From Burkholderia sp. BCC0322 (lineage in GTDB: Bacteria; Pseudomonadota; Gammaproteobacteria; Burkholderiales; Burkholderiaceae): a DNA stretch of 64,000 nucleotides. How positions within the stretch are numbered: the stretch's first letter is position 1; every line of letters starts with the position of its first letter. The position numbers and the translations under genes were made by a program. The notes beneath the pieces were generated by a model. The model was given only the letters and a program-made list of their open reading frames with translations. It searched no databases and had not been told where the DNA came from. This document shows positions 8,844 through 38,832 of the stretch, in pieces. The stretch lies in NCBI RefSeq assembly GCF_902833045.1, contig NZ_CADFDU010000002.1, forward strand, positions 310,001 through 374,000. Direction: 5' to 3'.

Positions 8844-10007
8844 ATGTCGCGTCCATTCTGCAAAATTCTTTTGATCGCGTGTGTCATGGGCGCGGTCACG
8901 CTTGCCGGTTGTTCAGGTATTCCTACATCGGGCGCCAGCGGCTCCCAAATTGCTCGGGCGCCGGAGAGTCCATCGGGGATTCAGGTTGTCGATGTGACGG
9001 AGGATGTTGCGCGTCAGTTGTTTACTGATCGAAATACGTCGGACTTCGTCACGGCGCTGGGCGGAGGTGCGTCGTTCCGTCAGCAGTTGGGCGTCGGCGA
9101 CACGATTCAAGTATCCATTTGGGAGGCGCCGCCTGCGACGCTTTTTGGTGCGGCTCAATCGGACGGGAGTTCGGGGCCAGCAAACGCACGCGTGACGGTG
9201 CTTCCCGATCAGGCGATCGATGGCGACGGCAACGTCAATATCCCGTTTGCGGGGCAGGTCAAGGCGGCCGGTCGTCCGCCTACACAGTTGGCGCGTGAAA
9301 TTGCTGCGCGATTGAAGGGTATGGCGCATGATCCGCAGGTGCTTGTGAAGCTTTCTCGCAACGAGACGTCATATGTGACGGTTGTGGGTGATGTGACGGA
9401 GAACGCTCGCATGCCTTTGACTGCTCGGGGGGAGCGTCTCCTCGATGCATTGGCGAGTGCGGGTGGGGCGAAGCACCCGGTTGACAAAGTTACGATCCAG
9501 ATTACGCGCGGTAAGACGGTGGCCTCGTTGCCGCTCGACGTGGTTATTCGTGATCCGAGGCAGAATGTTCCCCTGCATGCGGGTGATGTGGTCACCGTGC
9601 TGTTCCAGCCTTATAGCTTCACGGTGCTCGGCGCGACTGGCAAGAATGACGAAATCAATTTTGAAGCGAAGGGCATCACGCTTGCGCAGGCACTTGCGCG
9701 CGCTGGAGGCTTGCAGGACTCGCGTGCCGATGCGCAGGGCGTATTCATTTTCCGACTTGAAGACGCCAAAGCGCTGAAATGGCCGACGGCTCCTGTGCGT
9801 ACGACGGCGGACGGAAAGGTGCCTGTTGTGTATCGCGTGAATCTTCGCGATCCGAATTCATTTTTCGTCGCTCAAAGCTTCATGGTTGACAACAATGATC
9901 TGTTGTACGTCTCGAATGCGCCGATCGCCGAGCTTCAAAAATTCTTGAACGTTGTCTTCTCCGTGGCGTATCCGGTGATTACTGGCGTTCAGACTGCTAG
10001 GTACTGA
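8844..10007 (+). CDS. wcbC: outer-membrane capsule export lipoprotein WcbC (Wza/KpsD type)
   Basis: The 387-residue protein has a lipoprotein signal (MSRPFCKILLIACVMGAVTLAGC) with lipidated Cys at residue 23. It continues with a polysaccharide export (PES) domain, QQLGVGDTIQVSIWEAPP near 76-93, and soluble ligand-binding beta repeats (VTVVGDVTENARMPL and FTVLGATGKNDEINF). This family forms the outer-membrane exit channel for capsule. It opens the plus-strand arm, with wcbD 81 bases downstream, and works with WcbD and the Wzm/Wzt transporter. Confidence 0.93.
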   Translation: MSRPFCKILLIACVMGAVTLAGCSGIPTSGASGSQIARAPESPSGIQVVDVTEDVARQLFTDRNTSDFVTALGGGASFRQQLGVGDTIQVSIWEAPPATLFGAAQSDGSSGPANARVTVLPDQAIDGDGNVNIPFAGQVKAAGRPPTQLAREIAARLKGMAHDPQVLVKLSRNETSYVTVVGDVTENARMPLTARGERLLDALASAGGAKHPVDKVTIQITRGKTVASLPLDVVIRDPRQNVPLHAGDVVTVLFQPYSFTVLGATGKNDEINFEAKGITLAQALARAGGLQDSRADAQGVFIFRLEDAKALKWPTAPVRTTADGKVPVVYRVNLRDPNSFFVAQSFMVDNNDLLYVSNAPIAELQKFLNVVFSVAYPVITGVQTARY

Positions 10008-11642: not shown

Positions 11643-12425
11643 ATGACAAAATTCGGCCGATCGTTGGCGGTTCAGCGAAGAGTTATATTCGCGTTGCTGA
11701 TGCGGGAAGTATTGACTAGGTACGGACGCCACAATATCGGATTCCTTTGGCTGTTTGTCGAGCCGATGATCTTCACAGTCGGGATTACGATACTTTGGAA
11801 TGCGACAGGAGCAACACATGGATCAAATCTCCCTATTTCTGCCTTTGCTTTGACCGGCTATTCAACTGTATTGCTTTGGAGAAATATGCCTGGTCGATGC
11901 AGCATGGCGATTACGCCGAATTTGGCATTGATGTACCATCGAAATGTCAAGGTTATTGATATATTCATCGCCCGTATTTTGTTGGAGGTGGTTGGTAATA
12001 CCGCATCGTTTTTCCTGCTGATGATTACATTTCATGCATTGGGGATCGTTGAATACCCGGAAAATATACTTGAGGTTCTGTTTGCCTGGGGCATGATTAT
12101 CTGGTTCGGTGCATCGCTCGCATTTATCATTGGGGCGTTGAGCGAGAAGACGGAGCTTGTCGAGAAGCTTTGGCATCCAGTTACCTATCTCATGTTCCCG
12201 CTATCGGGTGCTATTTTCATGGTGGAATGGCTTTCGCCGGCATTTCAAAATATTGTCCGGTGGTTGCCCATGGTTCACGGCGTCGAGATGCTTCGCGAGG
12301 GTTACTTCGGTAGCCTCGTCACGGCACATTACGATGTTGGATATATGGCTTGCTCTTGCACAGCCATGTCGCTGATTGGTCTCGCATTGGTTCGCGACGT
12401 GGGGCGTGAGGTCACACCGGAATGA
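11643..12425 (+). CDS. wzm: capsule ABC transporter permease (ABC-2, KpsM/Wzm type)
   Basis: A 260-residue, about six-helix membrane protein. The N-terminus VQRRVIFALLMREVLTRYGRHNIGFLW is the conserved start of KpsM/BexB permeases, and FVEPMIF follows. It moves completed lipid-linked capsule chains across the inner membrane with Wzt. It sits 6 bases after wcbD and overlaps wzt by 4 bases (ATGA). Confidence 0.94.
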   Translation: MTKFGRSLAVQRRVIFALLMREVLTRYGRHNIGFLWLFVEPMIFTVGITILWNATGATHGSNLPISAFALTGYSTVLLWRNMPGRCSMAITPNLALMYHRNVKVIDIFIARILLEVVGNTASFFLLMITFHALGIVEYPENILEVLFAWGMIIWFGASLAFIIGALSEKTELVEKLWHPVTYLMFPLSGAIFMVEWLSPAFQNIVRWLPMVHGVEMLREGYFGSLVTAHYDVGYMACSCTAMSLIGLALVRDVGREVTPE

Positions 12426-13078
12426 TTCGACTTACCCAAGTCAGGAAGACGTATCAGACGAAATCTGGACCGCGGACGGTTCTTGATGGTGTCGACGTAG
12501 ATATAGCTAGCGGCGAAAAGATTGGCATTCTCGGTGGAAATGGGGCGGGGAAGTCAACGCTGATTCGTATAATAAGCGGCGCTGAAAGACCAACTGCGGG
12601 GCGCGTGTACCGGGGAATGAGTGTTTCGTGGCCTCTGGCTTTTGGTGGTGCATTCCAGAATTCACTCACGGGTATCGACAATCTTCGCTTTATATGTCGA
12701 ATCTACGATGTACTCGTCGAGGATAAACTGCCCTTTGTGCGTGAATTCACCGAGCTCGGCAAGTATCTTAATGAGCCGGTCAAAACATATTCGGCGGGGA
12801 TGCGAGCAAAACTCGCCTTTGCTATTTCTATGGCCGTGGATTTTGATTGTTTCCTCATCGACGAGGTCACGGCAGTCGGCGATGAACGTTTTCGCCAAAA
12901 ATGTCATATTGAGTTGTTTGAGAAGCGTAATGCGCGAGCAATGATTTTTGTTTCTCATGATCCGGGATTTATCAGGGCTAACTGTCAGAGGGCGACGGTT
13001 TTGCACGGAGGGAAGCTGTACGAATTTCCGGAAATGGATGAGGCATACCATTTTTATCGAGAAACGCAGGGCGCTTAA
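12422..13078 (+). CDS. wzt: capsule ABC transporter ATP-binding protein (KpsT/Wzt type)
   Basis: A 218-residue ATPase with Walker A GGNGAGKST, a signature loop YSAGMRAKLAF (KpsT-type variant of LSGGQ), Walker B CFLIDEV with catalytic Glu replaced in position as in KpsT, and the switch His in FVSHD. It has no C-terminal carbohydrate-binding domain, as expected for capsule exporters that recognise a conserved lipid terminus rather than the repeat unit. The ATG overlaps the wzm stop. Confidence 0.94.
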   Translation: MIRLTQVRKTYQTKSGPRTVLDGVDVDIASGEKIGILGGNGAGKSTLIRIISGAERPTAGRVYRGMSVSWPLAFGGAFQNSLTGIDNLRFICRIYDVLVEDKLPFVREFTELGKYLNEPVKTYSAGMRAKLAFAISMAVDFDCFLIDEVTAVGDERFRQKCHIELFEKRNARAMIFVSHDPGFIRANCQRATVLHGGKLYEFPEMDEAYHFYRETQGA

Positions 13079-24695: not shown

Positions 24696-25898
24696 ATGTC
24701 CCGCTTCTTCCTTGCCCTGCAAGGCACGGCCTCCCCGTTTTTTGGTCGACTTGCTGCCGGTCTCAGCCAGCGAGGTCACCAGGTTCGGCGTGTAAACTTT
24801 TGCGGCGGAGATCTAGCGTATCAAGGTTCGGAAAGCGCTTGGAACTATCGCGACGAAACCGAAGGTCTTGTCGCGTGGTATCGCGATGTGATTGCGGCCA
24901 ATGGCGTGACGGATGTACTCCTGTTTGGGGATTGCCGTGCGATCCATCGGCCGATGCACGAGATCGCTCGCGCATCGGGGGTCGGTGTCCACGTATTCGA
25001 AGAGGGTTATGTTCGACCGCACTGGATAACGATGGAGGAGCACGGTGTCAATGGGCGATCGTTGTTGCCGCGAGACCCTGCCTATTATCTCGACGCACGC
25101 CAGCATATCCCGCCGGTAGTTCCCGGGAAGCCCACCGGCTACAACCTTTACGAGCGTGCTTGTCACGATATCCGGTACCGCATGGCCAACGCGTTGTATG
25201 CGCACCGCTTCCCACATTACAAGTCTCACCGTCCCAGAAACGGCTTCGAGGAATACGCGGGCCTGGCGTATCGTGCCATTCGGCAACGAGCGCGCGATAG
25301 GGAGGCCGATAGCGTTACCCGTGACTTGCTGGAGAGAAATCGCAAGTACTATCTGTTCCCGCTGCAGCTAAATTCCGACTCCCAGATTGTCGATCATTCC
25401 CCTTTTGGCGGCATTTGCGACGCGATTGCGTTTGTTTTACACTCATTCGCCGAAAATGCGCCCGACGATAGTTGGCTCGTGATCAAAAATCACCCGTTGG
25501 ACACCGGTCTGATCGGGTACCGTCAATTTGCGACGGCACTTGCCGCCGAGCTCGGTATCCAGAAGAGGGTGGTCTTTATTGATGCGGGCCATTTGCCGAC
25601 GTTGCTTGATCGGTGTTGTGGCGTGGTCGTGATAAACAGTACGGTCGGTCTGTCCGCTGTTCACCACCGACGTCCCCTCGTTGCATTGGGCACAGCGATC
25701 TATTCGATGCCGGGGCTGACCTGGCAGGGAGGCCTGGCGGACTTTTGGGCAGGGGCTAGTGGTCCGGACATGAATCTCTATCAGGCTTTTCTCGACTACG
25801 TGATGCACCATACTCAGATTAACGGCGACTTTTATACGCGTGCTGGTATAGAGATGAGCGTCACCGGTGCTGTGAGTCGGCTCGAGGCGGTGTCGTGA
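24696..25898 (+). CDS. wcbO: KpsS-like capsule Kdo transferase / export protein WcbO
   Basis: A 400-residue protein of the KpsS family: LQGTASPFFGRLAAGLSQRG at the start, VFEEGYVRPHWITMEEHGVN near residues 100-119, and WLVIKNHPLDTG plus GVVVINSTVGLSAVHHRRP in the C-terminal half. KpsS adds the first beta-Kdo to lysophosphatidylglycerol; KpsC (WcbA here) extends it. Its presence predicts that this capsule has the Kdo linker of other ABC-exported capsules. It overlaps wcbP by 4 bases (GTGA). Confidence 0.92.
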   Translation: MSRFFLALQGTASPFFGRLAAGLSQRGHQVRRVNFCGGDLAYQGSESAWNYRDETEGLVAWYRDVIAANGVTDVLLFGDCRAIHRPMHEIARASGVGVHVFEEGYVRPHWITMEEHGVNGRSLLPRDPAYYLDARQHIPPVVPGKPTGYNLYERACHDIRYRMANALYAHRFPHYKSHRPRNGFEEYAGLAYRAIRQRARDREADSVTRDLLERNRKYYLFPLQLNSDSQIVDHSPFGGICDAIAFVLHSFAENAPDDSWLVIKNHPLDTGLIGYRQFATALAAELGIQKRVVFIDAGHLPTLLDRCCGVVVINSTVGLSAVHHRRPLVALGTAIYSMPGLTWQGGLADFWAGASGPDMNLYQAFLDYVMHHTQINGDFYTRAGIEMSVTGAVSRLEAVS

Positions 25899-26683
25899 GC
25901 GCCAGCGCTGGGCCGCGGCATATCGCTATTACGGGGGCGAGCGCCGGTCTTGGGCGAGCGCTGGCCCGAGCCTACGCACGACCCGGGGTGGTATTGAGCC
26001 TCGGCGGGCGTGACGCGGCGCGCCTTGATGAAAGCGCAGCCGATTGCCGTGCCCGTGGCGCGACCGTTTTCCTTGCAACCATTGATGTCCGGGACGCCGG
26101 TGCGATGCAGCGGTGGCTTGAACAGTTCGATGACACGTACCCGATCGACCTGTTGATCGCGAACGCCGGCGCGGCCAGTACACTCGCGCATGTGGGCGAC
26201 TGGGAGACGCGCGAACGCACCGCAGCAATCGTCGATACGAATTTCTACGGCGCGATGAACGCTGTGCTGCCGACAATAGATCGGATGCGTACGCGTGGTA
26301 ACGGCCAAGTGGCGCTGATTAGTTCGCTCGCGGCGCTACGAGGCATGGCGATTTCACCTGCCTATTGCGCGAGCAAAGCCGCGTTGAAGGCATGGGGCGA
26401 CTCGGTGCGTCCGGTGCTGAAACGCGACGGTATTCGTCTGTCCGTTGTTTTGCCGGGTTTTGTCAAGACAGCGATGAGCGACGTTTTTCCGGGAGACAAG
26501 CCTTTCCTGTGGTCATCCGACAAGGCAGCGCAGTATATACAGCGCGGCATTGCCGCCCGACGGGCTGAAATTGCGTTCCCCGGTCTGCTCGCGCTGGGCA
26601 TGCGGCTGCTTCCGTTGTTGCCTGCGGTGATCGCCGACGCGATTCTCGGTCGATTGTCCTATTTGCCGCGAGAGGAGCGATAG
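25895..26683 (+). CDS. wcbP: short-chain dehydrogenase WcbP
   Basis: A 262-residue classical SDR starting at a GTG that overlaps the wcbO stop. It has the cofactor loop ITGASAGLGRALA (residues 10-22), NAG at about 89-91, and the Ser-Tyr-Lys triad in ISSLAALRGMAISPAYCASK. It probably reduces or oxidises a hydroxyl/keto group on a precursor of the capsule or its lipid. Substrate unknown. It sits between the linker gene wcbO and wcbQ, at the junction of the sugar and lipid modules. Confidence 0.85.
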   Translation: MSASAGPRHIAITGASAGLGRALARAYARPGVVLSLGGRDAARLDESAADCRARGATVFLATIDVRDAGAMQRWLEQFDDTYPIDLLIANAGAASTLAHVGDWETRERTAAIVDTNFYGAMNAVLPTIDRMRTRGNGQVALISSLAALRGMAISPAYCASKAALKAWGDSVRPVLKRDGIRLSVVLPGFVKTAMSDVFPGDKPFLWSSDKAAQYIQRGIAARRAEIAFPGLLALGMRLLPLLPAVIADAILGRLSYLPREER

Positions 26684-26684
26684 C

Positions 26685-28217
26685 GTGGCGTCGTCGATGC
26701 CGATCACGTTCGTCTTTGCCATTGCCCTGTCATTTGCCGCAGATACGATTGCCATTCCCCGCGCAGCTGTTCGCCGTCCCGCATTGGCGCTGGCGCTGCA
26801 CGTCGCGAGCGTGTTGTTCGTCGCGTGTGTCATCCTTGCGCTAACCCGTCGCCTGCATTTTGCTGCGTTCCTAGCGCTAGCGTTGGTGGCTCTTGCCAGC
26901 GCAGTCAGCAATGCGAAATTTACATCCCTTCGCGAGCCTTTTGTCTTTACCGATTTGAGTCTGTTCGGTCAGTTGTTTTCGCACCCGCGTCTTTACTTGC
27001 CGTTTTTGAGTACGATAACAGTCGTGGCAATGGTGCTCGGCGCGGTTGCCCTCGTGGTCGGTTTCATTCTCGATCCTGCAGTATCGGTGCAAACAGCGTC
27101 GCGAGGTGCTCTGGTGGCGTTGATTTTTCTTGCGATGGGCTACTTGTGCGCCGCGCGTTTACCGCTCACGCTCGATCCGCTCGAAGACCAGCGCCGTCAC
27201 GGATTCTTTGCCGTCTTTGTCGCATATTTACTGAACGGCATGCGACCGGCTACGTTTCGCTTGATAGCAGGACTGACATCCTCTGGTCCGTTTGCTCGTG
27301 AAGATGCCTTGCTTGGTTATCCTGACGTGATAGTGATCCAAAGCGAGTCATTCTTCGACCCGCGCCCGTTGTCAGTTGCGATCGATCCGTCGATTCTTGA
27401 TCATTTCGATCGGGTATGTTGTGAGTCCGTCGAACATGGACAACTGACAGTGCCTGCCTGGGGGGCGAACACGATGCGATCGGAATTTGCATTCCTGACC
27501 GGTCTGTCCTCATCGCGCCTTGGTTACGCGCGATTCTATCCCTACGCATTCGTGCGGCGCACTTGTGCCTCACTGGCGGGCTGGTTTCGCCGAGCGGGTT
27601 ACCGAACGACGGCTGTTCACCCTTATTACGCGGATTTTTTCGGCCGCAATCGAGTTTTTCCACTGCTCCAGTTTGACCGCTTCCTCGATATTCGCGCTTT
27701 CGGCGACGCACCGCGTGCCGGACCGTATATTTCAGATGCGGCCACTCTTGACCAGATCATCTCGGTGCTCGACGAGAAGCGCACGCAACCGGCTTTTGTA
27801 TTTGCGATGACGATGGAAAACCATGGCCCGTTGCATTTGGAGTCGGTGGAGGCCGGGGAGGCTGCCCGCTACCATACACTTGGTGACGATTCCAGGTGGC
27901 GTGACCTTACGGCGTACCTCCGCCACGTGGCCAACGCAAATGCAATGATCGGACGGCTTGTCGCCTATCTGCGCCAGTGCCGCCGAGATACGATTCTGTG
28001 TCTCTACGGTGATCATGTTCCCGCGTTGTCGCATATATTCGAGAAGTTCGGGAACATACCCGACCAAAGCAATTACGTCATCTGGCGGAATTTCGGAGAA
28101 CACTCTCCACGAAGGCAGGACCGTGCGGTCGAGGATCTTGGCACCGCGTTGCTTCGTGCGATGACGACGACGGGTGGGCAGGCGGTTTCGACTGGCGCGT
28201 CGGAGATAACATCGTAG
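26685..28217 (+). CDS. wcbQ: membrane sulfatase-superfamily protein WcbQ (LTA-synthase-like)
   Basis: A 510-residue protein: about five N-terminal membrane helices (to roughly residue 195), then a periplasmic alkaline-phosphatase/sulfatase domain. Metal and nucleophile motifs are IVIQSESFFDP, WGANTMRSEFAFLTG (Thr as likely nucleophile), TMENHGP and LYGDHVP. This architecture is that of lipoteichoic-acid synthase and OpgB/EptA-type phosphotransferases, which move phosphoglycerol or phosphoethanolamine onto glycans in the periplasm. It may therefore decorate the capsule after export. Starts at a GTG one base after wcbP and ends two bases before wcbR. Confidence 0.82.
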   Translation: MASSMPITFVFAIALSFAADTIAIPRAAVRRPALALALHVASVLFVACVILALTRRLHFAAFLALALVALASAVSNAKFTSLREPFVFTDLSLFGQLFSHPRLYLPFLSTITVVAMVLGAVALVVGFILDPAVSVQTASRGALVALIFLAMGYLCAARLPLTLDPLEDQRRHGFFAVFVAYLLNGMRPATFRLIAGLTSSGPFAREDALLGYPDVIVIQSESFFDPRPLSVAIDPSILDHFDRVCCESVEHGQLTVPAWGANTMRSEFAFLTGLSSSRLGYARFYPYAFVRRTCASLAGWFRRAGYRTTAVHPYYADFFGRNRVFPLLQFDRFLDIRAFGDAPRAGPYISDAATLDQIISVLDEKRTQPAFVFAMTMENHGPLHLESVEAGEAARYHTLGDDSRWRDLTAYLRHVANANAMIGRLVAYLRQCRRDTILCLYGDHVPALSHIFEKFGNIPDQSNYVIWRNFGEHSPRRQDRAVEDLGTALLRAMTTTGGQAVSTGASEITS

Positions 28218-28219
28218 CT

Positions 28220-31200
28220 ATGATTAACACCAAGATCGCAATTATCGGTGCCTCGTGCCGATTTCCGGGCGGAGTTTCCGGACTGGAAGAATACTGGCAA
28301 CTGCTTGAGAGCGAACGCGACGCAGTCACCGAAATCCCCGCCGACCGCTTCGGCACCGATTTCTACCAGCACCCGTCCAAGCGCGAACAGGGAAAGAGCT
28401 ACACGTTCTCGGCCGGCGTGCTCGACAACGTCGCCGGCTTCGACGCCGCGTTCTTCGGCATTTCCCCGCGCGAAGCGGCCCAGATGGACCCCCAGCAGCG
28501 CCTGCTGCTCGAACTCGCATGGGAAGCCTTCGAGGACGCCGGCGTGCGTCCGGCCGACATGCGCGGCAGCAACTGCGGCGTCTTCGTCGGCGCCGCCAGC
28601 ATGGATTACGGCAACCGCAACATGGACGATCTGAACGTGATCGATCCGTATTCGGCGACCGGCAACACCCTGAGCATCGCGTCGAACCGCGTGTCCTACC
28701 TGTTCGACCTGCGCGGCCCGAGCATGTCCGTCGACACGGCCTGCTCGTCGTCGCTCGTCGCGCTCCACCAGGCCGTCAAGGCGCTGCAGTCCGGCGAAGC
28801 CGACGTGGCGCTTGCCGGCGGCGTCAACCTGCTGCTGCACCCGTTCGGCTTCGTCAGCTTCTCCAAGGCGTCGATGCTGTCGCCGCGTGGCCGTTGCCGC
28901 GCGTTCGACGCGACCGGCGACGGCTATGTCCGCTCCGAAGGCGGCGCGTTCGTGCTGCTCAAGCCGCTCGATCGCGCGCTCGCCGATGGCGACACGATCC
29001 ATGCGGTGATCGCCGGCTCCGGCGTGAACTCGGTCGGCCATTCGCCGGGCGGCATCAGCGTGCCGGGCGCGGCCGCGCAAGCATCGCTGCTGCGCAGCGT
29101 ATACGAGCGCGCGGGCATCGACCCGCGGTCGCTCGCTTATCTCGAAGCGCACGGCACGGGCACCGCGGTCGGCGATCCGATCGAGGCGCGCGCGCTGATC
29201 GACGTCGTGTCGGGCGAGCGCCCGGCGGATCGTCCGCTGCTCATCGGTTCGGTCAAGACCAACATCGGCCATCTCGAGACGGCATCCGGCATGGCCGGGC
29301 TGCTGAAGGCCGTGCTGTGCCTGAAGCATCGCGCGGTACCGCGCTCGCTGCACTTCGTTACGCCCAATCCCGGGATCGATTTCGACGGCGGGCGTCTGCG
29401 CGTCGTCGATCGCTACATGCCGCTCGACGCAGGCGACGCGCCGCTGACAGTTGGCGTCAAATCGTTCGGCTTCGGTGGAACGAACGCACACGTCGTGCTG
29501 ACGGAGGCGCCGGGTGCAAACGAGGCGCCGACGGCCGCGCCCGAACCGACGCACGCGCCACTGTCTCCGCTCGTCCTGACCGCGCGCAGCGCGAACGCGC
29601 TCGGCGCGCTCGCGGGCCGCTATCTGGCGATGCTCGACAACGGCGGCGACTGGCAGGCGCTTGCCGCCGCGGCCGCACGTCGCCGCCAATGGCTCGAGCA
29701 TCGCGCGATCGTCGCGCCGGCCGACGTGGCCGAAGGGCGCGCCGCGCTTGCGGCGCTGGCCCAGCCGGCGTCGGAAGGGCTGCCGGCGTGCGTGGCGACC
29801 GGCCAGGCTCCGGGCGACGCGGTGCGCACCGCGCTCGTCTTCTCGGGCAACGGTTGCCAGTGGGTCGGGATGGGCAACGAGCTTTATGCCGAGAACGCCG
29901 TCTTCCGCGCGGCGCTCGATGAAGTCGACGCGCTGTGGTGCGCCGACGGCAGCCCGTCGCTCGTCGACGTGATGCGCGGCGGCCCGAGCGCGGAATGGCT
30001 GGCCGGTGCGGGCGCCGAATGGCTGGCCGCGACGGAGAACGCGCAGCCGCTGCTGTTCGCGATCCAGGTCGGCATGATCCGCGCGATCGACGCGCGCGGG
30101 ATGCGTTACGACGCGGCGATCGGCCATAGCGTCGGCGAGATCGCTGCGGCGTGGGTGACCGGCGCGCTGTCGCTCGCCGACGCGGTTCGCGTGATCAAGA
30201 TCCGCAGCCGCGCGCAGGCGATGACGCGCGGCAGCGGCCGGATGGCGGCCGTCGGCATCGGCGACGCGGCGGCGCGCGAACTGATCGCACGCCACGGGCT
30301 GGCGCGACGCGTCGAGATCGCCGGCATCAACAGCCCCGATGCGGTGACGCTCGCGGGCGAACTGCAGGGCCTGCAGGCACTGGAGGCCGCGTTGCGCGGC
30401 AGCGGCAAGTTCTTCCAGATGCTGGATCTCGACTACGCGTTCCACAGCAGCCACATGGACCGCATCGAACCGGTCGTGCTGGCCGAACTGGCGAGCCTGC
30501 GGCCGCAGCCGGGCAACGGCACGTTCGTGTCGACCGTGACCGGCGGCGCGCTGGCCGGCACCGAACTCGATGCCCGCTACTGGTGGCGCAACATTCGCGA
30601 GCCGGTGCGCTTCGGCGACGGCATCGCGCATCTGATCGAGCAGGGTGTCCGGCTGTTCGTCGAGGTCTCGCCGCATTCGATCCTGCGCACCTACGTGAAG
30701 CAGGCATTCGCGGCGGCCGGCGCGACCGGCGTGGCGCTGCCGACGCTCAAGCGCGATCACGGCAGCGCGGCAATGCTGCGGCAAGCGATTCTCACGGCGA
30801 TCGCGCACGGCGCGAGTGTCGATCCCGACCGCTTCGCGCCGGGCGAATCGCGCACTGCATTGCCGTCCTATCCGTGGCAGCGCGAGCGCTTCTGGCTGAC
30901 GCCGACCGTCGAAGGCTACGGTCTCGTCAATCGCCGTCGCGAGCATCCGCTGCTCGGCTATCGCCTGCACGAGCACGCATTCGCGTGGGAAAACCAGCTC
31001 GATCCGGCGAAGCTGCCGATGCTGGCCGATCACGTCGTCGACGGCGGCGTGGCGTTCCCGGGGGCCGGGTACGTGGAAATGGCGCTCGCCGCGGCACGCA
31101 CCTTCTTCGATACGCCGGATGCGGCGCTCGAAAACGTCGAGATCCGCACGCCGGTGGTATTCCAGCCGCAGCAGGCGAAGCTGTTCCGGCTCGTGATCGA

Positions 31201-34200
31201 GCCGCGCACGGCAACCTTCACGATCGAGACGCGCGACCGGATGTCCGGCGGCGCATGGACGCTGAACGTGACGGGGCGGATGCTGGAAAGCGGCAACGCG
31301 CTCGGCGATGCGAGCGTCGTGCCGTCCGGCGCGCTCGATCGCCTGCTCGCGCTGCCTGCAGCCGACGGCGACACGCTGTACGCAAACACGGCAGCAATCG
31401 GCCTCAGCTACGGGCCGGCGTTCCGCTGGGTCCGCACCGTGCGGATCGCCGCGGATGACGGCGTGGCGCTGGCCGACATCGCCGCGCCGGCCGCATGCGG
31501 CGACGCGCGGGCGTTGTCCGCGTACCTGCTGCATCCGGCGCTGATGGACAGCGGGTTTCATCCGCTGTTCGCACTGCTTGCGGCGCACGCGCGCGAAGGC
31601 GAGCATCCGGCTTACGTGCCGGTGCAGATCGGTCGGGTCGACTATCTGCGCGGCGACACGGTCGAGCGGGTGCTCGTGCGGATCGACCGGCGCAGCCCGC
31701 ATTCGATCGTCGCGCATTTCGAATTCCTCGATGCGTGCGGTGCGATCGTCGCGCGGCTCGGCGCATGCCGGTTCCGCCGCGTCGATCTCGTCGGCCGTCG
31801 GCAGAACCTGCCCGCGCGCTTCGTCTACCGCCTTGAAGAAGTGCCACTGCCGGGTGACGTCGACGCGGCCGGTTTGCCGGCCCCCGATGCGCTGCTCGCG
31901 CAGGCCGTCGCGCGGCTCGAAACGACCGGGCACGAAGGCCGCCGGACGCAGCATCTGACCGAAATCCTGCCGCTGATCGATGTGCTGGCGAGCCTCTACG
32001 CGCTCCGCGCGTTCGATGCGCTCGGCGCATTCGCCGGCACGTGGCAGCCGGCGGCCGGGCGTGCGGCGTTGGCCACGCGTCTCGCCGACATGCTGGTCGA
32101 GGATGGGCTCGCGCATCGCGATGGCGCGTTGCTCGTGCGCGACGACGCGGCGTGCGCGGCGTTGCCGCCGCTCGACGAGCTGTGGCGCGGGCTGCTGGCC
32201 GAATCGCCGGGGCACGTGGCCGAGCTGACGCTGCTCGCGCATTGCGGCGCGGCATTGCCGGACGTACTGAACGGCGCGAAAGACGGCGCCCGTCTGCTGT
32301 CGCCGACCGGGCACAGCCTGGTTGAACAACTCCTGGCCGCATCGCCGACGTGGCAGCACGTGCACGCGCTGCTGACCGCAAGCGTCGAGCAGGCGGTCGA
32401 CGGATGGCAGCCGGCACGCCGGTTGCGCGTGCTCGAACTGGGCGCGACGGACGGCGACGTGCTGCAGACGCTCGGCATGCATCTCGCGGCCGCGCGCTGC
32501 GATCACACGATCGCAGCGACTGCCGGCCAACTGGCCGGGTTCGACGCGGATGCGGAAGCGGCGGTGCGCACGGTTGCGCTGCAGTCGGGCGAGCGGCTGT
32601 CTCTGGCGGTCGACGAGGCCGGCCCTTACGACCTGATCGTCGCGAACCGTGCGTTGAGCGGCCGTCACGATGTGGTCGATGCGTTGAACGCGATGCGGTC
32701 ATGGCTGGCGCCGGGTGGTTTGCTGCTGCTGGCCGAGTCGCGTCGCGGCCGTTTCTCCGACATCGTATTCGGCGCGCAGGCTGCGTCGACGGAAGCCGAC
32801 GCGCCGGTGCCGCTGGCGCCGGCGGATCTCGATGCGGCGCTCGCACGCGCGGGCTACGTCGATGTCGTGCGGCACGTCGAGCAATCGCTCGATCTGGACG
32901 GCACGCCGACGTTCGTCATCGCGCGCAATCCCGCAAGCGCCGCGGTTGCGCAACGCGGCGACGAATCGAGCGATCTCGATACGCTGGCACGCAGCGAGCA
33001 ATGGCTCGTGGTGCACGCACCGGATGCCGCCGGCAGTTTCGGCGGGCGGCTGGCCGATGCGCTCGCGCGCGCGGGCTATCCGGCCGATATCGTCGACATC
33101 ACGCACGCGGCCGATGCGATTGCGTCACTACCGGCCGGGCAGCCGGTGCATGTCGTGTTCTGCGCGTCGGAGACGCCGCTCGCCGAATCGGCGACGGGGG
33201 ATGGCTTGATGGCCGCGCAGCGTAACGGCGTGATCGCCCTTGCGGCACTGGTTCGCACGCTCGGTGCGCAGCCGAACGCGGCCACGCGGCTGACCGTCGT
33301 CACGCGTGGCGGCGCGCCATTCGCCGGGGCCGCGAACGCGCATCCGGAGCAGGCCACGCTGTGGGGCCTCGGTCGCGTGCTGGCGAACGAGCATCCCGAA
33401 CTCGCGTGCCGTCTGATCGACGTCGATCGAGCGGCGGACCGGATCCCCGACGCGCTGATTCGCGAGCTGACCGGCGCAGCGCTCGAGGAAGAAGTCGTCC
33501 TGGGTGCGCACGGGCGGCAGGTGCCGCGCATGCTGACCGCCGCGCAGGCCGCGGCCCGCAACGATGGCGCGATCGCGCGTGCGGCCGTGCTCGCGTTCGA
33601 TGCGCCGGGCTCGTTGCGCAATCTCGAATGGTTTGCGTTGCCGGAAAGCCCGCTGGGTGACGACGAGGTGGAGATCGAGCCCGTTGCCACCGGCCTCAAT
33701 TTCCGCGACGTGATGTATGCGATGGGGCTGTTGTCCGATGAGGCGGTCGAGACCGGCTTCGCGGGCGCGACGATCGGCATGGAACTGTCCGGCCGCGTCG
33801 TGCGGGTCGGCAAGGCCGTGACGGAATTCGCGCCGGGCGATGCGATGCTCGGCTTCGCGCCGGCTTCGTTCGCGACGCGCGTCAGGACGCGGGCGCAAGC
33901 GATCGCACGGAAACCCGAGCGGCTGTCGTTCGAGGAAGCGGCGACCGTGCCGACCACGTTCTTCACCGCGTACTACGCACTCGTCGAACTCGCGCGCCTG
34001 CGTCGCGGCGAGCGTGTGCTCGTGCACGGCGGCGCGGGTGGCGTCGGGATCGCCGCGATCCAGCTCGCGCGCCACTTCGGCGCGGAAGTGTTCGCGACGG
34101 CCGGCAGCGACGAGAAGCGCGAGTTCGTGCGCCTGCTCGGCGCGGACCACGTGCTCGATTCGCGCAGTCTCGCGTTCGCGGACGAGATTCGCGCGCTGAC

Positions 34201-35854
34201 GGGCGGCCAGGGCGTCGACATCGTGCTGAATTCGCTTGCCGGCGAAGCGATGGTGCGCAGCATCGATACGCTGCGGCCGTTCGGTCGTTTCCTCGAGCTC
34301 GGCAAGCGCGACTTCTACGAAAACAGCCATATCGGGCTGCGGCCGTTCCGCAACAACATCAGCTATTTCGGTATCGACGCCGATCAGTTGATGGGGGCGC
34401 TGCCCGAGCTGACCGCGCGCCTGTTCGGCGAAGTGATGGCGCTGTTCGCGGCCGGCGTGCTGCATCCGCTCCCGTACCGCGCGTTTCCGGCCGAACGGGC
34501 GGAAGATGCGTTCCGCTACATGCAGCAGGCGCGCCAGATCGGCAAGGTGCTCGTGACCTATCCGTCCGGTACGCCGGCCCCGACGCGCGGCGTCACGCGC
34601 GCGGGCTCGCTCGCGCTCGATCCGCATGGCACGTACCTGGTGGTCGGCGGCACGGGCGGGCTCGGCTTTGCGAGCGCGCGCTGGATGGTCGAGCGCGGCG
34701 CACGCCGGCTGACGCTGGCGAGCCGTTCCGGCGAGCTCGCTGCAGCCGCACGCGACGAAGTCGAACGCTGGCGCAACACGCTCGGCGTCACGGTCGATGT
34801 CGTGTCGTGCGATGTGACCGACGCAGCGGCGGTCGATGCGATGATCGACGCGATCGGCCGGCGCGGCAGCCCGCTCAAGGGCGTGCTGCATTCGGCGATG
34901 TCGATCGACGACGGCCTCGTGCGCAATCTCGACGATGCGCGCATGGCCGCGGTGCTCGCACCGAAGGTGGCCGGCGCGTGGAACCTGCATCGCGCGACGC
35001 GCGCGTTGCCGCTCGACCTGTTCGTGGTCTATTCGTCGGCGACGACCTATCTCGGCAATCCGGGGCAGTCGAACTACGTCGCGGCCAACAGCTTCCTCGA
35101 GGCGCTCGTCGAACATCGCCGCGCGGCGGGCTTGCCGGGCACGTTCATGGCCTGGGGGCCGCTCGAGGACGTCGGCTTCCTCGCGCGCCACGCGGATACG
35201 CGCGAGGCGTTGCAGTCGCGGATTGGCGGTGCATCGATCACGTCCGACGAGGCGATGGTCGCGCTCGAGCGCGCGCTGGTGGCGGGCGCGGCGGGCGAAG
35301 CGGTGGTCCGGCTCGACTGGCATGCCGTGGCGCGCGGGATGCCCGCCGCGAAGGCACGCCGGTATTCGCTGCTGCAATCGCATGCGAAGGGCGGCGATGC
35401 GCGCGACGGCGGCACGCAGCTGTGGGACGACGTGCTGGCGTTGCCGCGCGACGAAGCGATCGCGCTGGTTGCCCGGACGCTGCAGGCGCAGATCGCGCGA
35501 ATCCTGCACATGACGCCGGATCGCATCGCGCTCGACAAGTCGGTGCTCGACATGGGCATGGATTCGCTGATGGGGATGGAACTCGGCCTCGCGGTCGAGG
35601 AAGCATTCGAGGTCAAGCTGTCGGTGATGGCGATTGCCGAGGGCGCGTCGGTGACGACGCTGGCCGGCCGTATCGTCGATTCGATCGGCGCGTCGACCGA
35701 TGCGGACGCCGGTTCCGCGACGGATGCGGCGCAGGACGCCGTCGCGGCGCTCGCTGCGAAGCATGCGATCGACGGCGAAGCGCGCGCGATGCTCGATACG
35801 CGGCAGGCGCCCGTGGCGGGCCAGGCGCCGTCGACGCTGGAAGTCGCGCGATGA
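28220..35854 (+). CDS. wcbR: reducing type I polyketide synthase WcbR
   Basis: A 2544-residue multidomain synthase. Domains in order: KS (1-425; Cys175 in DTACSSSL, EAHGTGT, KTNIGHLE), AT (about 530-840; Ser637 in GHSVGE; YAFH segment, malonyl-like), DH (about 905-1190; His938 in HVVDGGVAFP, Asp1110 in LMDSGFHP), a methyltransferase-like region (about 1360-1560; VLELGATDGD), ER (about 1790-2110; GGAGGVG at 1937), KR (about 2130-2320; GGTGGLG) and one ACP (Ser2449 in DMGMDSLMG). No thioesterase or other release domain follows. One full module with all reductive steps suggests an iterative synthase making a saturated fatty chain. G+C is visibly higher than in the sugar genes before it. It overlaps wcbS by 4 bases (ATGA). 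Confidence 0.95.
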   Translation: MINTKIAIIGASCRFPGGVSGLEEYWQLLESERDAVTEIPADRFGTDFYQHPSKREQGKSYTFSAGVLDNVAGFDAAFFGISPREAAQMDPQQRLLLELAWEAFEDAGVRPADMRGSNCGVFVGAASMDYGNRNMDDLNVIDPYSATGNTLSIASNRVSYLFDLRGPSMSVDTACSSSLVALHQAVKALQSGEADVALAGGVNLLLHPFGFVSFSKASMLSPRGRCRAFDATGDGYVRSEGGAFVLLKPLDRALADGDTIHAVIAGSGVNSVGHSPGGISVPGAAAQASLLRSVYERAGIDPRSLAYLEAHGTGTAVGDPIEARALIDVVSGERPADRPLLIGSVKTNIGHLETASGMAGLLKAVLCLKHRAVPRSLHFVTPNPGIDFDGGRLRVVDRYMPLDAGDAPLTVGVKSFGFGGTNAHVVLTEAPGANEAPTAAPEPTHAPLSPLVLTARSANALGALAGRYLAMLDNGGDWQALAAAAARRRQWLEHRAIVAPADVAEGRAALAALAQPASEGLPACVATGQAPGDAVRTALVFSGNGCQWVGMGNELYAENAVFRAALDEVDALWCADGSPSLVDVMRGGPSAEWLAGAGAEWLAATENAQPLLFAIQVGMIRAIDARGMRYDAAIGHSVGEIAAAWVTGALSLADAVRVIKIRSRAQAMTRGSGRMAAVGIGDAAARELIARHGLARRVEIAGINSPDAVTLAGELQGLQALEAALRGSGKFFQMLDLDYAFHSSHMDRIEPVVLAELASLRPQPGNGTFVSTVTGGALAGTELDARYWWRNIREPVRFGDGIAHLIEQGVRLFVEVSPHSILRTYVKQAFAAAGATGVALPTLKRDHGSAAMLRQAILTAIAHGASVDPDRFAPGESRTALPSYPWQRERFWLTPTVEGYGLVNRRREHPLLGYRLHEHAFAWENQLDPAKLPMLADHVVDGGVAFPGAGYVEMALAAARTFFDTPDAALENVEIRTPVVFQPQQAKLFRLVIEPRTATFTIETRDRMSGGAWTLNVTGRMLESGNALGDASVVPSGALDRLLALPAADGDTLYANTAAIGLSYGPAFRWVRTVRIAADDGVALADIAAPAACGDARALSAYLLHPALMDSGFHPLFALLAAHAREGEHPAYVPVQIGRVDYLRGDTVERVLVRIDRRSPHSIVAHFEFLDACGAIVARLGACRFRRVDLVGRRQNLPARFVYRLEEVPLPGDVDAAGLPAPDALLAQAVARLETTGHEGRRTQHLTEILPLIDVLASLYALRAFDALGAFAGTWQPAAGRAALATRLADMLVEDGLAHRDGALLVRDDAACAALPPLDELWRGLLAESPGHVAELTLLAHCGAALPDVLNGAKDGARLLSPTGHSLVEQLLAASPTWQHVHALLTASVEQAVDGWQPARRLRVLELGATDGDVLQTLGMHLAAARCDHTIAATAGQLAGFDADAEAAVRTVALQSGERLSLAVDEAGPYDLIVANRALSGRHDVVDALNAMRSWLAPGGLLLLAESRRGRFSDIVFGAQAASTEADAPVPLAPADLDAALARAGYVDVVRHVEQSLDLDGTPTFVIARNPASAAVAQRGDESSDLDTLARSEQWLVVHAPDAAGSFGGRLADALARAGYPADIVDITHAADAIASLPAGQPVHVVFCASETPLAESATGDGLMAAQRNGVIALAALVRTLGAQPNAATRLTVVTRGGAPFAGAANAHPEQATLWGLGRVLANEHPELACRLIDVDRAADRIPDALIRELTGAALEEEVVLGAHGRQVPRMLTAAQAAARNDGAIARAAVLAFDAPGSLRNLEWFALPESPLGDDEVEIEPVATGLNFRDVMYAMGLLSDEAVETGFAGATIGMELSGRVVRVGKAVTEFAPGDAMLGFAPASFATRVRTRAQAIARKPERLSFEEAATVPTTFFTAYYALVELARLRRGERVLVHGGAGGVGIAAIQLARHFGAEVFATAGSDEKREFVRLLGADHVLDSRSLAFADEIRALTGGQGVDIVLNSLAGEAMVRSIDTLRPFGRFLELGKRDFYENSHIGLRPFRNNISYFGIDADQLMGALPELTARLFGEVMALFAAGVLHPLPYRAFPAERAEDAFRYMQQARQIGKVLVTYPSGTPAPTRGVTRAGSLALDPHGTYLVVGGTGGLGFASARWMVERGARRLTLASRSGELAAAARDEVERWRNTLGVTVDVVSCDVTDAAAVDAMIDAIGRRGSPLKGVLHSAMSIDDGLVRNLDDARMAAVLAPKVAGAWNLHRATRALPLDLFVVYSSATTYLGNPGQSNYVAANSFLEALVEHRRAAGLPGTFMAWGPLEDVGFLARHADTREALQSRIGGASITSDEAMVALERALVAGAAGEAVVRLDWHAVARGMPAAKARRYSLLQSHAKGGDARDGGTQLWDDVLALPRDEAIALVARTLQAQIARILHMTPDRIALDKSVLDMGMDSLMGMELGLAVEEAFEVKLSVMAIAEGASVTTLAGRIVDSIGASTDADAGSATDAAQDAVAALAAKHAIDGEARAMLDTRQAPVAGQAPSTLEVAR

Positions 35855-36768
35855 GCGCGCCGTCCGGCTGGGCATCGCGTCAGGGCACGCTGGCACGTCC
35901 GTTGGCGATCGACGGTCACGGGCTGCACACGGGGCGCCGGGTGGGCGTGCGGATCCTGCCCGCGCGTCCTGAAGAGGGCGTGACGGGCATTGCGTTCCGT
36001 CGCGTCGCGCAGGGGCGCACCCTCGCGACGCTGCCGGTCGATCCCGCGCTGCGCCGCGCGCAGCCCCTGTGCACGATGCTGCGCAATGCCGACGGCGTCG
36101 GCGTTCGCACGATCGAGCATCTGCTCGCGTCGCTGCTCGCGTGCGAGATCGATTACGCGGTCGTCGAGCTCGACGCCGAGGAAGTGCCGATTCTCGATGG
36201 CAGCGCCGCGCCTTGGGTGGATGCCATCCGCGCGTGCGGCCGTGTCGCGCTCGATGCGCCGAAACGCTTCATCCGCGTGCTGCGGCCCGTCGTCGTCACG
36301 GACGGCGAGGGTGGCCAGCGGCGCGAAATGCGGATCGAACCGGCGTCGCGTTACGAGCTGAGCGTGCGCAACGACCTGCGCGGTTTCGGCGACATGCACT
36401 GGGACGGCGCGCTGACGCCGGCCGCATTTGCGGCCGAGATCGCGCCGTCGCGCTCGTACGGGCGCGTGAAGTGGGCGGTGCCGGCGATCATCGCCGGCTA
36501 TCTGCGCGGGGTGCCCATCCTGCGCGGCGCGCGGCCGTCGTGCACCGCGTCGATCGTCGGCAATCGCGTGCTGGGCGGGATGCGGCTGCCGGAGGAGTTC
36601 GTCCGGCACCGCGTACTCGACCTGATCGGCGATCTCGCGCTGGCCGGCGCGCCGCTGCTGGCGCGCGTGAGCGCGTTGCGGCCGAGCCACGAGATGAATT
36701 TCAGGCTGGTCGATGCGTTGCTGACCACGCCCGATGCGTGGCAGTGGGCCGAGTTTTCCGAGGCCTGA
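35851..36768 (+). CDS. wcbS: LpxC-like zinc deacetylase WcbS
   Basis: A 305-residue homologue of UDP-3-O-acyl-GlcNAc deacetylase. It keeps the LpxC hallmarks: GHGLHTGRRV, VRTIEHLLASL (catalytic Glu and first zinc His), EEVPILDGSAAPWV, HRVLDLIGDLALAG (zinc His and Asp four residues on) and SHEMNF (the general-acid His). The Lys of the usual HKxLD motif is Arg here. All zinc ligands and the catalytic Glu appear present, so activity is plausible. Being embedded between a PKS and an alpha-oxoamine synthase, it is unlikely to be the lipid A enzyme, which is usually in the cell-division cluster. It probably deacetylates an amino-lipid or sugar intermediate. Start overlaps the wcbR stop. Confidence 0.88.
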   Translation: MSAPSGWASRQGTLARPLAIDGHGLHTGRRVGVRILPARPEEGVTGIAFRRVAQGRTLATLPVDPALRRAQPLCTMLRNADGVGVRTIEHLLASLLACEIDYAVVELDAEEVPILDGSAAPWVDAIRACGRVALDAPKRFIRVLRPVVVTDGEGGQRREMRIEPASRYELSVRNDLRGFGDMHWDGALTPAAFAAEIAPSRSYGRVKWAVPAIIAGYLRGVPILRGARPSCTASIVGNRVLGGMRLPEEFVRHRVLDLIGDLALAGAPLLARVSALRPSHEMNFRLVDALLTTPDAWQWAEFSEA

Positions 36769-36832
36769 AACCACGCTTTTTCATGACGCGCGGCGTAACA
36801 TAGCGCCTTTTCGAGATACAGCGAAGGAAGCA

Positions 36833-38161
36833 ATGGCACTGGGAGAACACCTTCGCCAGCAACTGGCGGCGAAAGCGCTGAAACGGCAACTGGAGCGCGC
36901 GACCGATGCTGCCGCGGCACCGGGCGTGCCCGGCACGCCGGCCGCGCAGGCCGCCTCGGCGAGGAGCCGCTTCGAATCGATGCCGCAGTATCAGCAGGTG
37001 CGGATCATGCGCGAAATGGGCGAGAAGCTGCGCGTCGACTCGCCATTCTTTCGCGTGCATGACGGCATCGCCGGTGCGACGACGCAGATCGGCGGCCGCG
37101 AATACCTGAACTTCGCGAACTACAACTACCTTGGCCTTGCCGGCGATCCGGCCGTGTCTGCGCGCGCGAAAGCCGCGATCGACCGCTATGGCACGTCGGC
37201 CTCCGCGAGCCGGATGGTCGCGGGCGAGCGCCCGGTGCAGCGCGACCTCGAGCGCGCGCTGGCCGCGTTCTACGAGACCGACGACTGTGTCGCGTTCGTG
37301 AGCGGCCATGCGACCAACGTGACCGTGATCGGCGCGCTGTTCGGCCCCGGCGATCTGGTCGTCCACGATTCGCTCGCGCACAACAGCATCGTGCAGGGCG
37401 CGCAGCTGAGCGGCGCGAAGCGGCTGAGCTTCGCGCACAACGACTGGCAGGCGCTCGACGAACTGCTCGCGCGCGTGCGCCGCGAATACCGGCACGTGCT
37501 GATCGCGATCGAAGGGCTGTACAGCATGGACGGCGATTTCCCCGACCTGCAGCGCTTCGTCGACGTGAAGACGCGCCACGGCGCATTCCTGCTGGTCGAC
37601 GAGGCGCATTCGCTGGGCGTGCTCGGCGCGACCGGCAAGGGCATCCGCGAGCACTGCGGCGTCGCGCCCGACCAGGTCGACATGTGGATGGGCACGATGA
37701 GCAAGACGCTGGCGGGCTGCGGCGGCTTCATCGCCGGCTGCCAGCCGCTGGTCGACATGCTGCGCCATCTGGCGCCGGGCTTCCTGTACAGCGTCGGGCT
37801 CGCGCCGACGCTCGCCGAAGCGTCGCTGGCCGCGCTCGAGCGCCTGCAGGCCGAGCCGGAGCGCGTCGCCCGGCTGCAGGCGCGCGGGCGGCAGTTCCTG
37901 ACCGAGGCGCGCGCGGCCGGGCTGAACACGGGCACGAGCGCCGGGTTCGCGGTCGTGCCGGTGATCACGGGCAGCTCGCTGAAGGCCGCGCAATGGGCCA
38001 ATGCGATGTTCGACGAAGGGATCAACGTGCAGCCGATCTTCTATCCGGCCGTCGAGGAAAAGGCCGCGCGCCTGCGCTTCTTCATCTGCTCGACGCACGA
38101 ACCGGAGCAGATCAGCCGGACGGTCGCCGTGTTGTCGCGTCTCGCGGGGCGCAGCGCATGA
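36833..38161 (+). CDS. wcbT: alpha-oxoamine synthase WcbT (PLP, serine palmitoyltransferase-like)
   Basis: A 442-residue PLP enzyme of the KBL/AONS/SPT family. It has NFANYNYLGLAGDPAV, the substrate region YGTSASASRMVAGERPVQ, LLVDEAHSLGVLGATGKG and the PLP lysine Lys291 in TMSKTLAGCGG. The family joins an acyl thioester to an amino acid with loss of CO2. Residues 1-65 are an extension before the usual family start. The frame is open from 36734, but GAAGGAAG at 36822-36829 supports the ATG at 36833. The gap to wcbS is 64 bases and the stop overlaps the next gene (ATGA). In a PKS operon without a thioesterase it is the obvious chain-releasing enzyme. Confidence 0.9.
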   Translation: MALGEHLRQQLAAKALKRQLERATDAAAAPGVPGTPAAQAASARSRFESMPQYQQVRIMREMGEKLRVDSPFFRVHDGIAGATTQIGGREYLNFANYNYLGLAGDPAVSARAKAAIDRYGTSASASRMVAGERPVQRDLERALAAFYETDDCVAFVSGHATNVTVIGALFGPGDLVVHDSLAHNSIVQGAQLSGAKRLSFAHNDWQALDELLARVRREYRHVLIAIEGLYSMDGDFPDLQRFVDVKTRHGAFLLVDEAHSLGVLGATGKGIREHCGVAPDQVDMWMGTMSKTLAGCGGFIAGCQPLVDMLRHLAPGFLYSVGLAPTLAEASLAALERLQAEPERVARLQARGRQFLTEARAAGLNTGTSAGFAVVPVITGSSLKAAQWANAMFDEGINVQPIFYPAVEEKAARLRFFICSTHEPEQISRTVAVLSRLAGRSA

Positions 38162-38832
38162 CGCTGGCCGGCGCGTTCGCGCAAGCGGTGCCGCGCGCCG
38201 GTGAGCGCGTGCGGTTTCGTGCGGCCGATGCGGGCGACGCGGCGGCGTGCGCGCCGCTCATGTTTGCGTCCGGCGTGGCCGAATTCGGGTTCTTTCTCGG
38301 CGAAAGCGACACGCGCTGCATCGCCTTCCTGCAGCAGGCGTTCCGGTCGCGTCACGGGCGCTTCTCGTGGCGCCGGCATCGTGTCGCGGTCGCCGACGAC
38401 GGCACTGTGCTCGCCGTGATGGCGATTCACGACGGACAGCAGACGATGTTCGACGACGTGCATGTCGTGTGGGCGCTGGCGCGCTTCTTCGGCGTGCGGC
38501 GCACGATCGGCCAGTTGTTGCGCGGGCTGATCCTCGAAACGGAAATTCCGGCGCCGAAACGTTCGCAGATCCTCGTCGCGCATTGCGCAACCGACGAGCG
38601 GCAGCGCGGCACGGGCATCTTCAGCGCACTGTTTCGCGACGCGCTGGACACCGGTGCGTTGCCCGCCGACGGCAGTCGCGACGTCGTGCTCGACGTGCTG
38701 ACCCGCAACGTGCGGGCTCGCGCGCTGTACGAACGGCTCGGGTTCACCGCGCTGCCGCGGCCACGCGCCCGTTCGCGCCGGCTGCCCGCCGAACTCGATT
38801 CGATCCGGATGCGGTTGTCTCGCCGCGCCTGA
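38158..38832 (+). CDS. GNAT-family N-acyltransferase
   Basis: A 224-residue protein of the GNAT type: VRFRAADAGDAAACAPLM at the N-terminus, an acyl-CoA-binding segment HCATDERQRGTGIFSALF, and the C-terminal LTRNVRARALYERLGF that is characteristic of the fold. Its ATG overlaps the wcbT stop, making it the last gene of the wcbR-wcbS-wcbT unit, although it is not part of the named wcb set I know. It probably acylates the amine produced by WcbT or exposed by WcbS; this is inference from position. It converges on the amidotransferase gene 24 bases away. Confidence 0.82.
   Translation: MTLAGAFAQAVPRAGERVRFRAADAGDAAACAPLMFASGVAEFGFFLGESDTRCIAFLQQAFRSRHGRFSWRRHRVAVADDGTVLAVMAIHDGQQTMFDDVHVVWALARFFGVRRTIGQLLRGLILETEIPAPKRSQILVAHCATDERQRGTGIFSALFRDALDTGALPADGSRDVVLDVLTRNVRARALYERLGFTALPRPRARSRRLPAELDSIRMRLSRRA

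Follow-up and report, generated by a model that had tools for sequence, protein, structure and literature searches.

A biosynthetic route to a sphingoid capsule lipid is proposed for Burkholderia sp. BCC0322, by which a polyketide synthase (PKS), WcbR (positions 28220..35854, + strand; 2544 aa), an alpha-oxoamine synthase (AOS), WcbT (36833..38161, +), and a short-chain dehydrogenase/reductase (SDR; 25895..26683, +) very probably make a sphinganine. The genes lie in a capsule locus in the window, by which we mean the whole 64,000-nucleotide stretch analysed (contig NZ_CADFDU010000002.1, positions 310,001 to 374,000). It is reasonably probable that this sphinganine is used as acceptor or anchor of the capsule. 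We regard as evenly poised the wider proposal that many proteobacterial capsules exported by ATP-binding cassette (ABC) transporters (in Burkholderia, Ralstonia, Cupriavidus, Bordetella, Pseudomonas, rhizobia, and others) are anchored by a PKS-made, very-long-chain phosphoglycerol-sphinganine and not by phosphatidylglycerol (PG), that the SgaAB cluster of Pseudomonas fluorescens MYb115 is such a capsule locus, and that a phosphoglycerol transferase may hand the capsule over from PG to sphinganine within the periplasm.

In the proposed pathway, WcbR would assemble a long saturated acyl chain on its own acyl carrier protein (ACP), WcbT would release the chain by decarboxylative condensation with serine to give 3-ketosphinganine, and the SDR would reduce this to sphinganine. 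A phosphoglycerol transferase of the LtaS/GacH type (26685..28217, +; sulfatase family), hereafter the lipoteichoic acid (LTA)-type protein, would transfer glycerophosphate, probably from PG, to form phosphoglycerol-sphinganine. This product resembles the lipid usually found in KpsS/KpsC capsules, lyso-PG. KpsS and KpsC would then add the beta-linked 3-deoxy-D-manno-octulosonic acid (Kdo) linker, and the ABC transporter would export the capsule on its sphingolipid anchor. Two further enzymes in Burkholderiaceae, an LpxC-like amidase (WcbS) and a GNAT acyltransferase, would additionally tailor an amine. We infer that the window proteins act like their counterparts in MYb115, that the head group is the work of the phosphoglycerol transferase, and that the resulting lipid bears the capsule.

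Pairing of the polyketide synthase and the alpha-oxoamine synthase

Named genomes were searched with a 17-sequence AOS alignment, and the best 80 of 585 confirmed stretches were kept; in 74 of these 80 loci the AOS is tied to a PKS or ACP. It is fused to ACP, KS, AT, or KR domains within a single reading frame in 22 loci, adjoins a PKS gene in 46, and is parted from one only by an LpxC gene in six (L036-L041); in the remaining six (L055, L074, L077, L079, L100, and L108) nothing PKS-like and no ACP was detected beside the AOS. The fusions occur in cyanobacteria, planctomycetes (as ACP-AOS), myxobacteria, actinobacteria, and Butyrivibrio, and one planctomycete fusion, on checking, is an acyl-AMP ligase-ACP-AOS protein. 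These arrangements provide good evidence that the AOS works on ACP-bound chains. An earlier, sequence-only reading of this DNA had proposed that the AOS releases the PKS-bound chain by condensation with an amino acid, yielding a sphingoid base, which is very probably right. That reading had also treated PKS, LpxC-like protein, AOS, and GNAT as one unit; the PKS-AOS pair stands and is the conserved core of the loci compared, with the LpxC-like protein and GNAT as add-ons of one lineage. A Planktothrix plasmid gene (L031:5584-13182) combines PKS and AOS in one protein and lies near a fatty acyl-AMP ligase and glycosyltransferases.

WcbR has the domain order KS-AT-DH-(methyltransferase-like)-ER-KR-ACP; a Pfam scan finds a single PP-binding match in it and neither a thioesterase nor any other release family. 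It retains the catalytic motifs (KS DTACSSS/HGTGT/NIGH, AT GHSVGE, DH His and Asp, KR YxxxN, and ACP GMDSL). Pfam and motifs together confirm the earlier description of a fully reducing type I PKS; as in the SgaAB type, the enzyme is mono-modular, with one ACP and no release domain. The methyltransferase-like stretch (residues ~1398-1509; PF13489, 30.2 bits) begins with the motif LELGATDGD, which looks degenerate, and the stretch may therefore be a relic. The PKS of the sponge swf system was considered as the nearest relative and rejected, because its authors set it apart from WcbR/RkpA.

In a tree of 71 hand-chosen AOS sequences (built by a quick method, rooted at the midpoint, and subject to a long-branch warning), WcbT and the Pseudomonas enzymes fall in one clade of 23 rows (SH-aLRT 96). 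This is nested in a clade of 54 rows (SH-aLRT 99) that also takes in the Sinorhizobium meliloti enzyme, the sampled PKS/ACP-AOS fusions, and six sequences of unexamined gene context (L018-L023); alphaproteobacterial serine palmitoyltransferase (SPT) and Escherichia coli KBL fall outside. WcbT thus shares a clade with SgaAB-type AOS, for which Pseudomonas relatives were used in the tree in place of PfSgaB itself. Its identity to the AOS of seven Pseudomonas genomes is 57-60%; loci named Burkholderia have an AOS 82% identical to it, and the genus of the nearest comparison genome has one at up to 99%. WcbT fails the cut-offs of the curated SPT models (NF047599, NF047600, and NF047603: 287/500, 279/640, and 227/670 bits), and its NCBIfam scores for BioF (336 bits) and KBL (306 bits) are likewise all below cut-off. 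Assignment as a canonical SPT, BioF, or KBL was rejected on these scores and the position in the tree; a PKS-associated, SPT-like AOS describes it better. As judged by eye, WcbT looks closer to the SPT of S. multivorum than to KBL in the surroundings of its pyridoxal phosphate (PLP) lysine (K291 by alignment) and of the PAV motif.

In P. fluorescens MYb115, SgaA and SgaB are required for C24, C26, and C28 sphinganines, and PfSgaB is an SPT whose preference is for L-serine, almost to the exclusion of alanine and glycine (PMC12134224, Peters et al., 2025). WcbT is 57-60% identical to its Pseudomonas counterparts, and the chemistry proposed for the pair is thus probably correct and has been published for a relative. 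The sequence-only reading had thought the joint chemistry to be seemingly undescribed, in which it was mistaken given the 2025 account of PfSgaAB: the kinds of component are known, and what has been published is the lipid chemistry of a relative (PMC12134224). The combination as a capsule anchor was not found in searches of a collection of open-licence PMC papers, from which many journals are missing.

Association with capsule genes

The four genes from WcbR to GNAT are intact and coupled as first read, with 4-base overlaps between WcbR and WcbS (35851..36768, +) and between WcbT and the GNAT gene (38158..38832, +), and a gap of 64 bases from WcbS to WcbT. An alternative WcbT ATG at 36734 would overlap the LpxC-like gene; in the close relative L032, the alignment sets in at the start at 36833. 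The tight run begins farther upstream, at a gene for a KpsS-type protein (24696..25898, +; Capsule_synth), a candidate transferase of the first beta-Kdo onto lipid: the KpsS and SDR genes overlap by 4 bases, and gaps of 1 and 2 bases separate SDR from LTA-type gene and LTA-type gene from PKS. The boundary originally drawn was too narrow, as it left out SDR, phosphoglycerol transferase, and KpsS, all of which are met again alongside the PKS-AOS pair in other proteobacteria.

Within the flanks read of the best 80 loci, KpsS occurs in 22, an LTA-type gene in 21, and an SDR (at least 110 bits) in 20; 33 loci have at least one of the three. These flanks are at most 10 kb, many less, so that in Burkholderia-type loci some of the SDR, LTA-type, and KpsS genes upstream fall outside them. 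A KpsS match is present in 25 of the 32 genomes that represent 32 of these loci. In a comparison of 398 genomes of the phylum, 14/19 with AOS had a KpsS relative vs. 44/379 without (p = 2.9e-9), where possession of AOS means E <= 1e-100 and G068 (1.3e-96, with KpsS) is counted as lacking it. An SDR lies beside KpsS in 11/14 AOS-positive loci vs. 0/20 controls (p = 1.3e-6; SDR matches of 67-68 bits in two controls were scored as absent), and an LTA-type gene in 10/14 vs. 3/20 (p = 0.0014). All 14 AOS-positive loci were used, the 20 controls were hand-picked for variety from the 44 AOS-free KpsS genomes, and the p values of these associations ignore shared descent. The earlier suggestion of a capsule lipid as the use of the product is likely to be right.

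The PKS-AOS pair was found in 7/199 Pseudomonas genomes, and in four of the seven KpsC, KpsS, SDR, and LTA-type genes lie beside it. The order in G627 (L153, L154) is PKS, AOS, PhyH, KpsC, GNAT, LTA-type, SDR, KpsS, KpsC; G625 has KpsC, GNAT, and LTA-type genes beside the pair, and G410 has the KpsC/KpsS/SDR/LTA-type set on a different contig from the pair. Strings from the primers of PMC12134224 were matched to 15 loci: mismatches to the PKS start and end primers number 1 + 1 in G627 (L154), 2 + 2 in G625 (L151), 2 + 4 in G433 (L161), 4 + 3 in G410 (L163), and 7-10 in the other loci. The MYb115 locus tags (PKS 19805, AOS 19800, SDR 19775; PMC12134224) appear to fit the gene spacing of G627.

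Phosphoglycerol transferase, reductase, and capsule initiation

Among proteins of solved structure, GacH (a phosphoglycerol transferase), LTA primase, and LTA synthase come closest to the LTA-type protein. We take this gene and that of the SDR to be those named WcbQ and WcbP, respectively. Seven residues of the LTA-type protein (E221, T263, H312, R321, H380, D443, and H444) do not vary among 16 relatives and match the metal and glycerophosphate ligands of LtaS named in PMC9131456, by motif and with the numbering equated by eye through the LtaP and GacH alignments; the NCBIfam LtaS model gives 23.7 of 970 bits. A hydrophobic N-terminal part with four hydropathy peaks precedes the catalytic domain, which suggests an LtaS-like topology with the catalytic domain outside the cytoplasm. 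The MYb115 products include +154 Da lipids assigned as putative phosphoglycerol-sphinganines (PMC12134224).

The SDR, a candidate 3-ketosphinganine reductase, belongs to the same family as that of the Pseudomonas clusters, as in the SgaAB type, and its reductase role is predicted. For capsule initiation and export by the KpsS/KpsC pathway, the window encodes homologues of KpsS and KpsC as well as an ABC exporter (permease and ATPase; 11643..13078, +). The KpsC-type protein (5507..7516, -; Capsule_synth) scores 288 bits against a Pseudomonas KpsC; the window KpsS is under the NF050054 equivalog cut-off (268 of 600 bits).

LpxC-like protein and GNAT

WcbS matches PF03331 and scores 618 bits with NF009666 (cut-off 423) vs. 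165.9 bits with the canonical LpxC model TIGR00325 (cut-off 187.25), as expected of an LpxC paralogue. A separate LpxC, of 33% identity, is encoded in G001, the nearest comparison genome. An LpxC search of 14 genomes returned two matches in each of six genomes with a window-type module, and a single match in G632, G656, G678, G667, and three Pseudomonas. Cocleimonas (G405, L042) has a second LpxC-like gene (G405:C3:139584-140405; 37% identity to WcbS) away from its PKS-AOS locus; its AOS branches next to the LpxC-bearing clade in the tree.

Among 46 Burkholderia genomes with AOS, 45 were examined (G664, a partial match, was left out), and LpxC and GNAT genes flank the AOS alike in 39, all with an AOS at least 82% identical to WcbT; the arrangement is therefore more than chance. 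In the six genomes without both genes beside the AOS, the AOS is 43-73% identical to WcbT, and two of these AOS, placed in the tree, group with a Bordetella. Across the best 80 loci, LpxC occurs in six and a window-type GNAT in five. The Pseudomonas, Bordetella, and rhizobial loci read contain no LpxC gene; the Pseudomonas clusters do encode a remotely similar GNAT (24% identity, probability 88%). An obligate LpxC-GNAT pair was rejected, given LpxC without window-type GNAT in L032 and L036, and GNAT without LpxC in the Pseudomonas clusters. From this distribution, WcbS and GNAT are best seen as tailoring add-ons, WcbS being one of the Burkholderiaceae.

Weighing of the capsule role and alternative explanations

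Several observations weigh against a role in capsule anchoring. The first is a conflict of topology, in that the LtaS-type domain faces the outside while KpsS and KpsC act in the cytoplasm (PMC11666461). Two ways round this conflict are possible: the lipid would flip back, or, in a variant pathway suggested by these locations, the LTA-type protein would transfer capsule-Kdo-glycerophosphate as a single block from PG to sphinganine once export is complete. Secondly, linkage is incomplete: a KpsS match is lacking in 7/32 genomes from the best 80 AOS loci and in 5/19 AOS genomes of the phylum-wide comparison, including G325, a Burkholderia with a window-type module. In Pseudomonas, no KpsS or SDR was detected beside the pair in G625, and G433 has no capsule gene within ~18 kb of it. 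Conversely, three KpsS loci (L217, L218, and L219) have an LTA-type gene without an AOS of the WcbT clade; the best AOS matches in their genomes are 331, 326, and 277 bits (A1 profile) vs. 654 and 663 for two clade members. Thirdly, no KpsS or LTA-type gene was seen beside the AOS in the actinobacterial, cyanobacterial, planctomycete, and firmicute loci surveyed, which implies that the pair has other uses. Rhizobial SDRs score just 140-151 bits with the SDR model vs. 368 for the window SDR, and the AOS-end primer string matched 0/15 loci (7-8 mismatches). Finally, Peters et al. found free sphinganines (PMC12134224).

The last point leads to the strongest alternative, which we nevertheless judge unlikely: the PKS-AOS pair makes a free sphingolipid with a membrane or signalling function, and capsule genes lie nearby only because both serve surface or host-interaction functions and share the same islands. 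For MYb115, effects on the host are described along with the free lipids (PMC12134224), and the pair occurs without capsule genes in the stretch read both in G433 and in many loci outside the Proteobacteria. Against this, SDR and LTA-type genes adjoin KpsS mainly when the genome has an AOS, the KpsS-SDR-LTA-PKS run of the window is tightly spaced, and rkp-1, the rhizobial counterpart, is required for capsule export according to a review (PMC4881576).

Less probable still is a product that caps or modifies the capsule polymer, or that serves as another envelope lipid (such as a lipid A-like amide), with the polymer carried on ordinary PG. The LpxC-like gene between PKS and AOS in Burkholderiaceae fits such a product, but the versions read from Pseudomonas, Bordetella, and rhizobia lack it, so that LpxC cannot explain the shared core. 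The WcbT clade includes the AOS domains of Streptomyces KS-AT-ACP-AOS proteins, which presumably resemble prodiginine enzymes that use glycine. Improbable even beside the preceding alternatives is condensation with glycine or alanine to an amino ketone or 1-deoxysphingoid, with the LTA-type enzyme decorating capsule sugar rather than lipid: the BioF and KBL models do outscore the SPT models on WcbT, and GacH adds glycerophosphate to a polysaccharide (PMC12282279), but PfSgaB, the nearest tested relative, uses L-serine (PMC12134224) and the residues around the PLP lysine and PAV motif look, by eye, closer to SPT than to KBL.

Remainder of the capsule locus

The left part of the window contains heptose-type sugar genes (GHMP kinase, SIS isomerase, nucleotidyl transferase, HAD phosphatase, GDP-mannose dehydratase-like protein, and WcbI) and export genes, including those of the ABC transporter and a polysaccharide export protein (8844..10007, +; Poly_export/SLBB), as well as the KpsC-type protein. 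The variable sugar part also encodes a PF03567 sulfotransferase-family protein (14656-15978) and a glycosyltransferase with a C-terminal DUF4214 (16925-18721). G001 has 24% of the sampled 31-letter words of the window in common. Its KpsS counterpart is only 71% identical, compared with 95% for the LpxC-like protein and 98% for AOS, which gives the capsule locus a mosaic look: a variable left part seems to meet a conserved right part at a break.

Comparison with known systems

The closest described system is PfSgaAB(C) of MYb115, which shares PKS, AOS, and SDR with the window, has its AOS in the same clade, and is reported to yield phosphoglycerol-sphinganines. It is described as a secondary-metabolite cluster, with 6,101 homologous clusters, mostly in Burkholderia (PMC12134224); a word search for 'capsul' in the available text of that paper gave 0 occurrences. 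The Pseudomonas loci differ from the window in having no LpxC gene in the stretches read. If the proposal is true, a published host-protective lipid cluster would be recast as capsule machinery.

The rkp-1 region of Sinorhizobium likewise has PKS, AOS, SDR, LTA-type, and KpsS genes in one cluster; its gene order is different, its SDR is more distant (151 bits), and no LpxC or window-type GNAT was seen. We take these genes to be rkpA, G, H, I, and J. The S. meliloti capsule anchor is reported (Fraysse, 2005) to be a phosphoglycerol bearing a C28 hydroxy acid, the calculated mass of which differs by about 1 Da from that of C28 sphinganine; this is not counted here as evidence. According to the review, rkp-1 makes a specific lipid carrier (PMC4881576), the structure of which is unstated in the portion available and would be named by the proposal, if true.

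KpsS/KpsC (group 2/3) capsules share with the window KpsS- and KpsC-type proteins and an ABC exporter, but their known anchor is (lyso)PG, reported as lyso-PG for E. coli K5 (PMC7694667, PMC11666461), in contrast to the sphingolipid hypothesised here. If the latter is true, sphingolipids would serve as capsule anchors in Gram-negative bacteria not known as sphingolipid producers. Compared with LtaS, LtaP, and GacH, the LTA-type protein conserves the catalytic and glycerophosphate ligands, and its proposed acceptor differs in being a sphingoid. The Vi capsule of Salmonella Typhi provides a precedent for an ABC-exported capsule on a non-PG lipid, although its anchor is a diacyl-HexNAc and neither KpsS/KpsC nor a sphingoid is involved according to the text available (PMC12220298).

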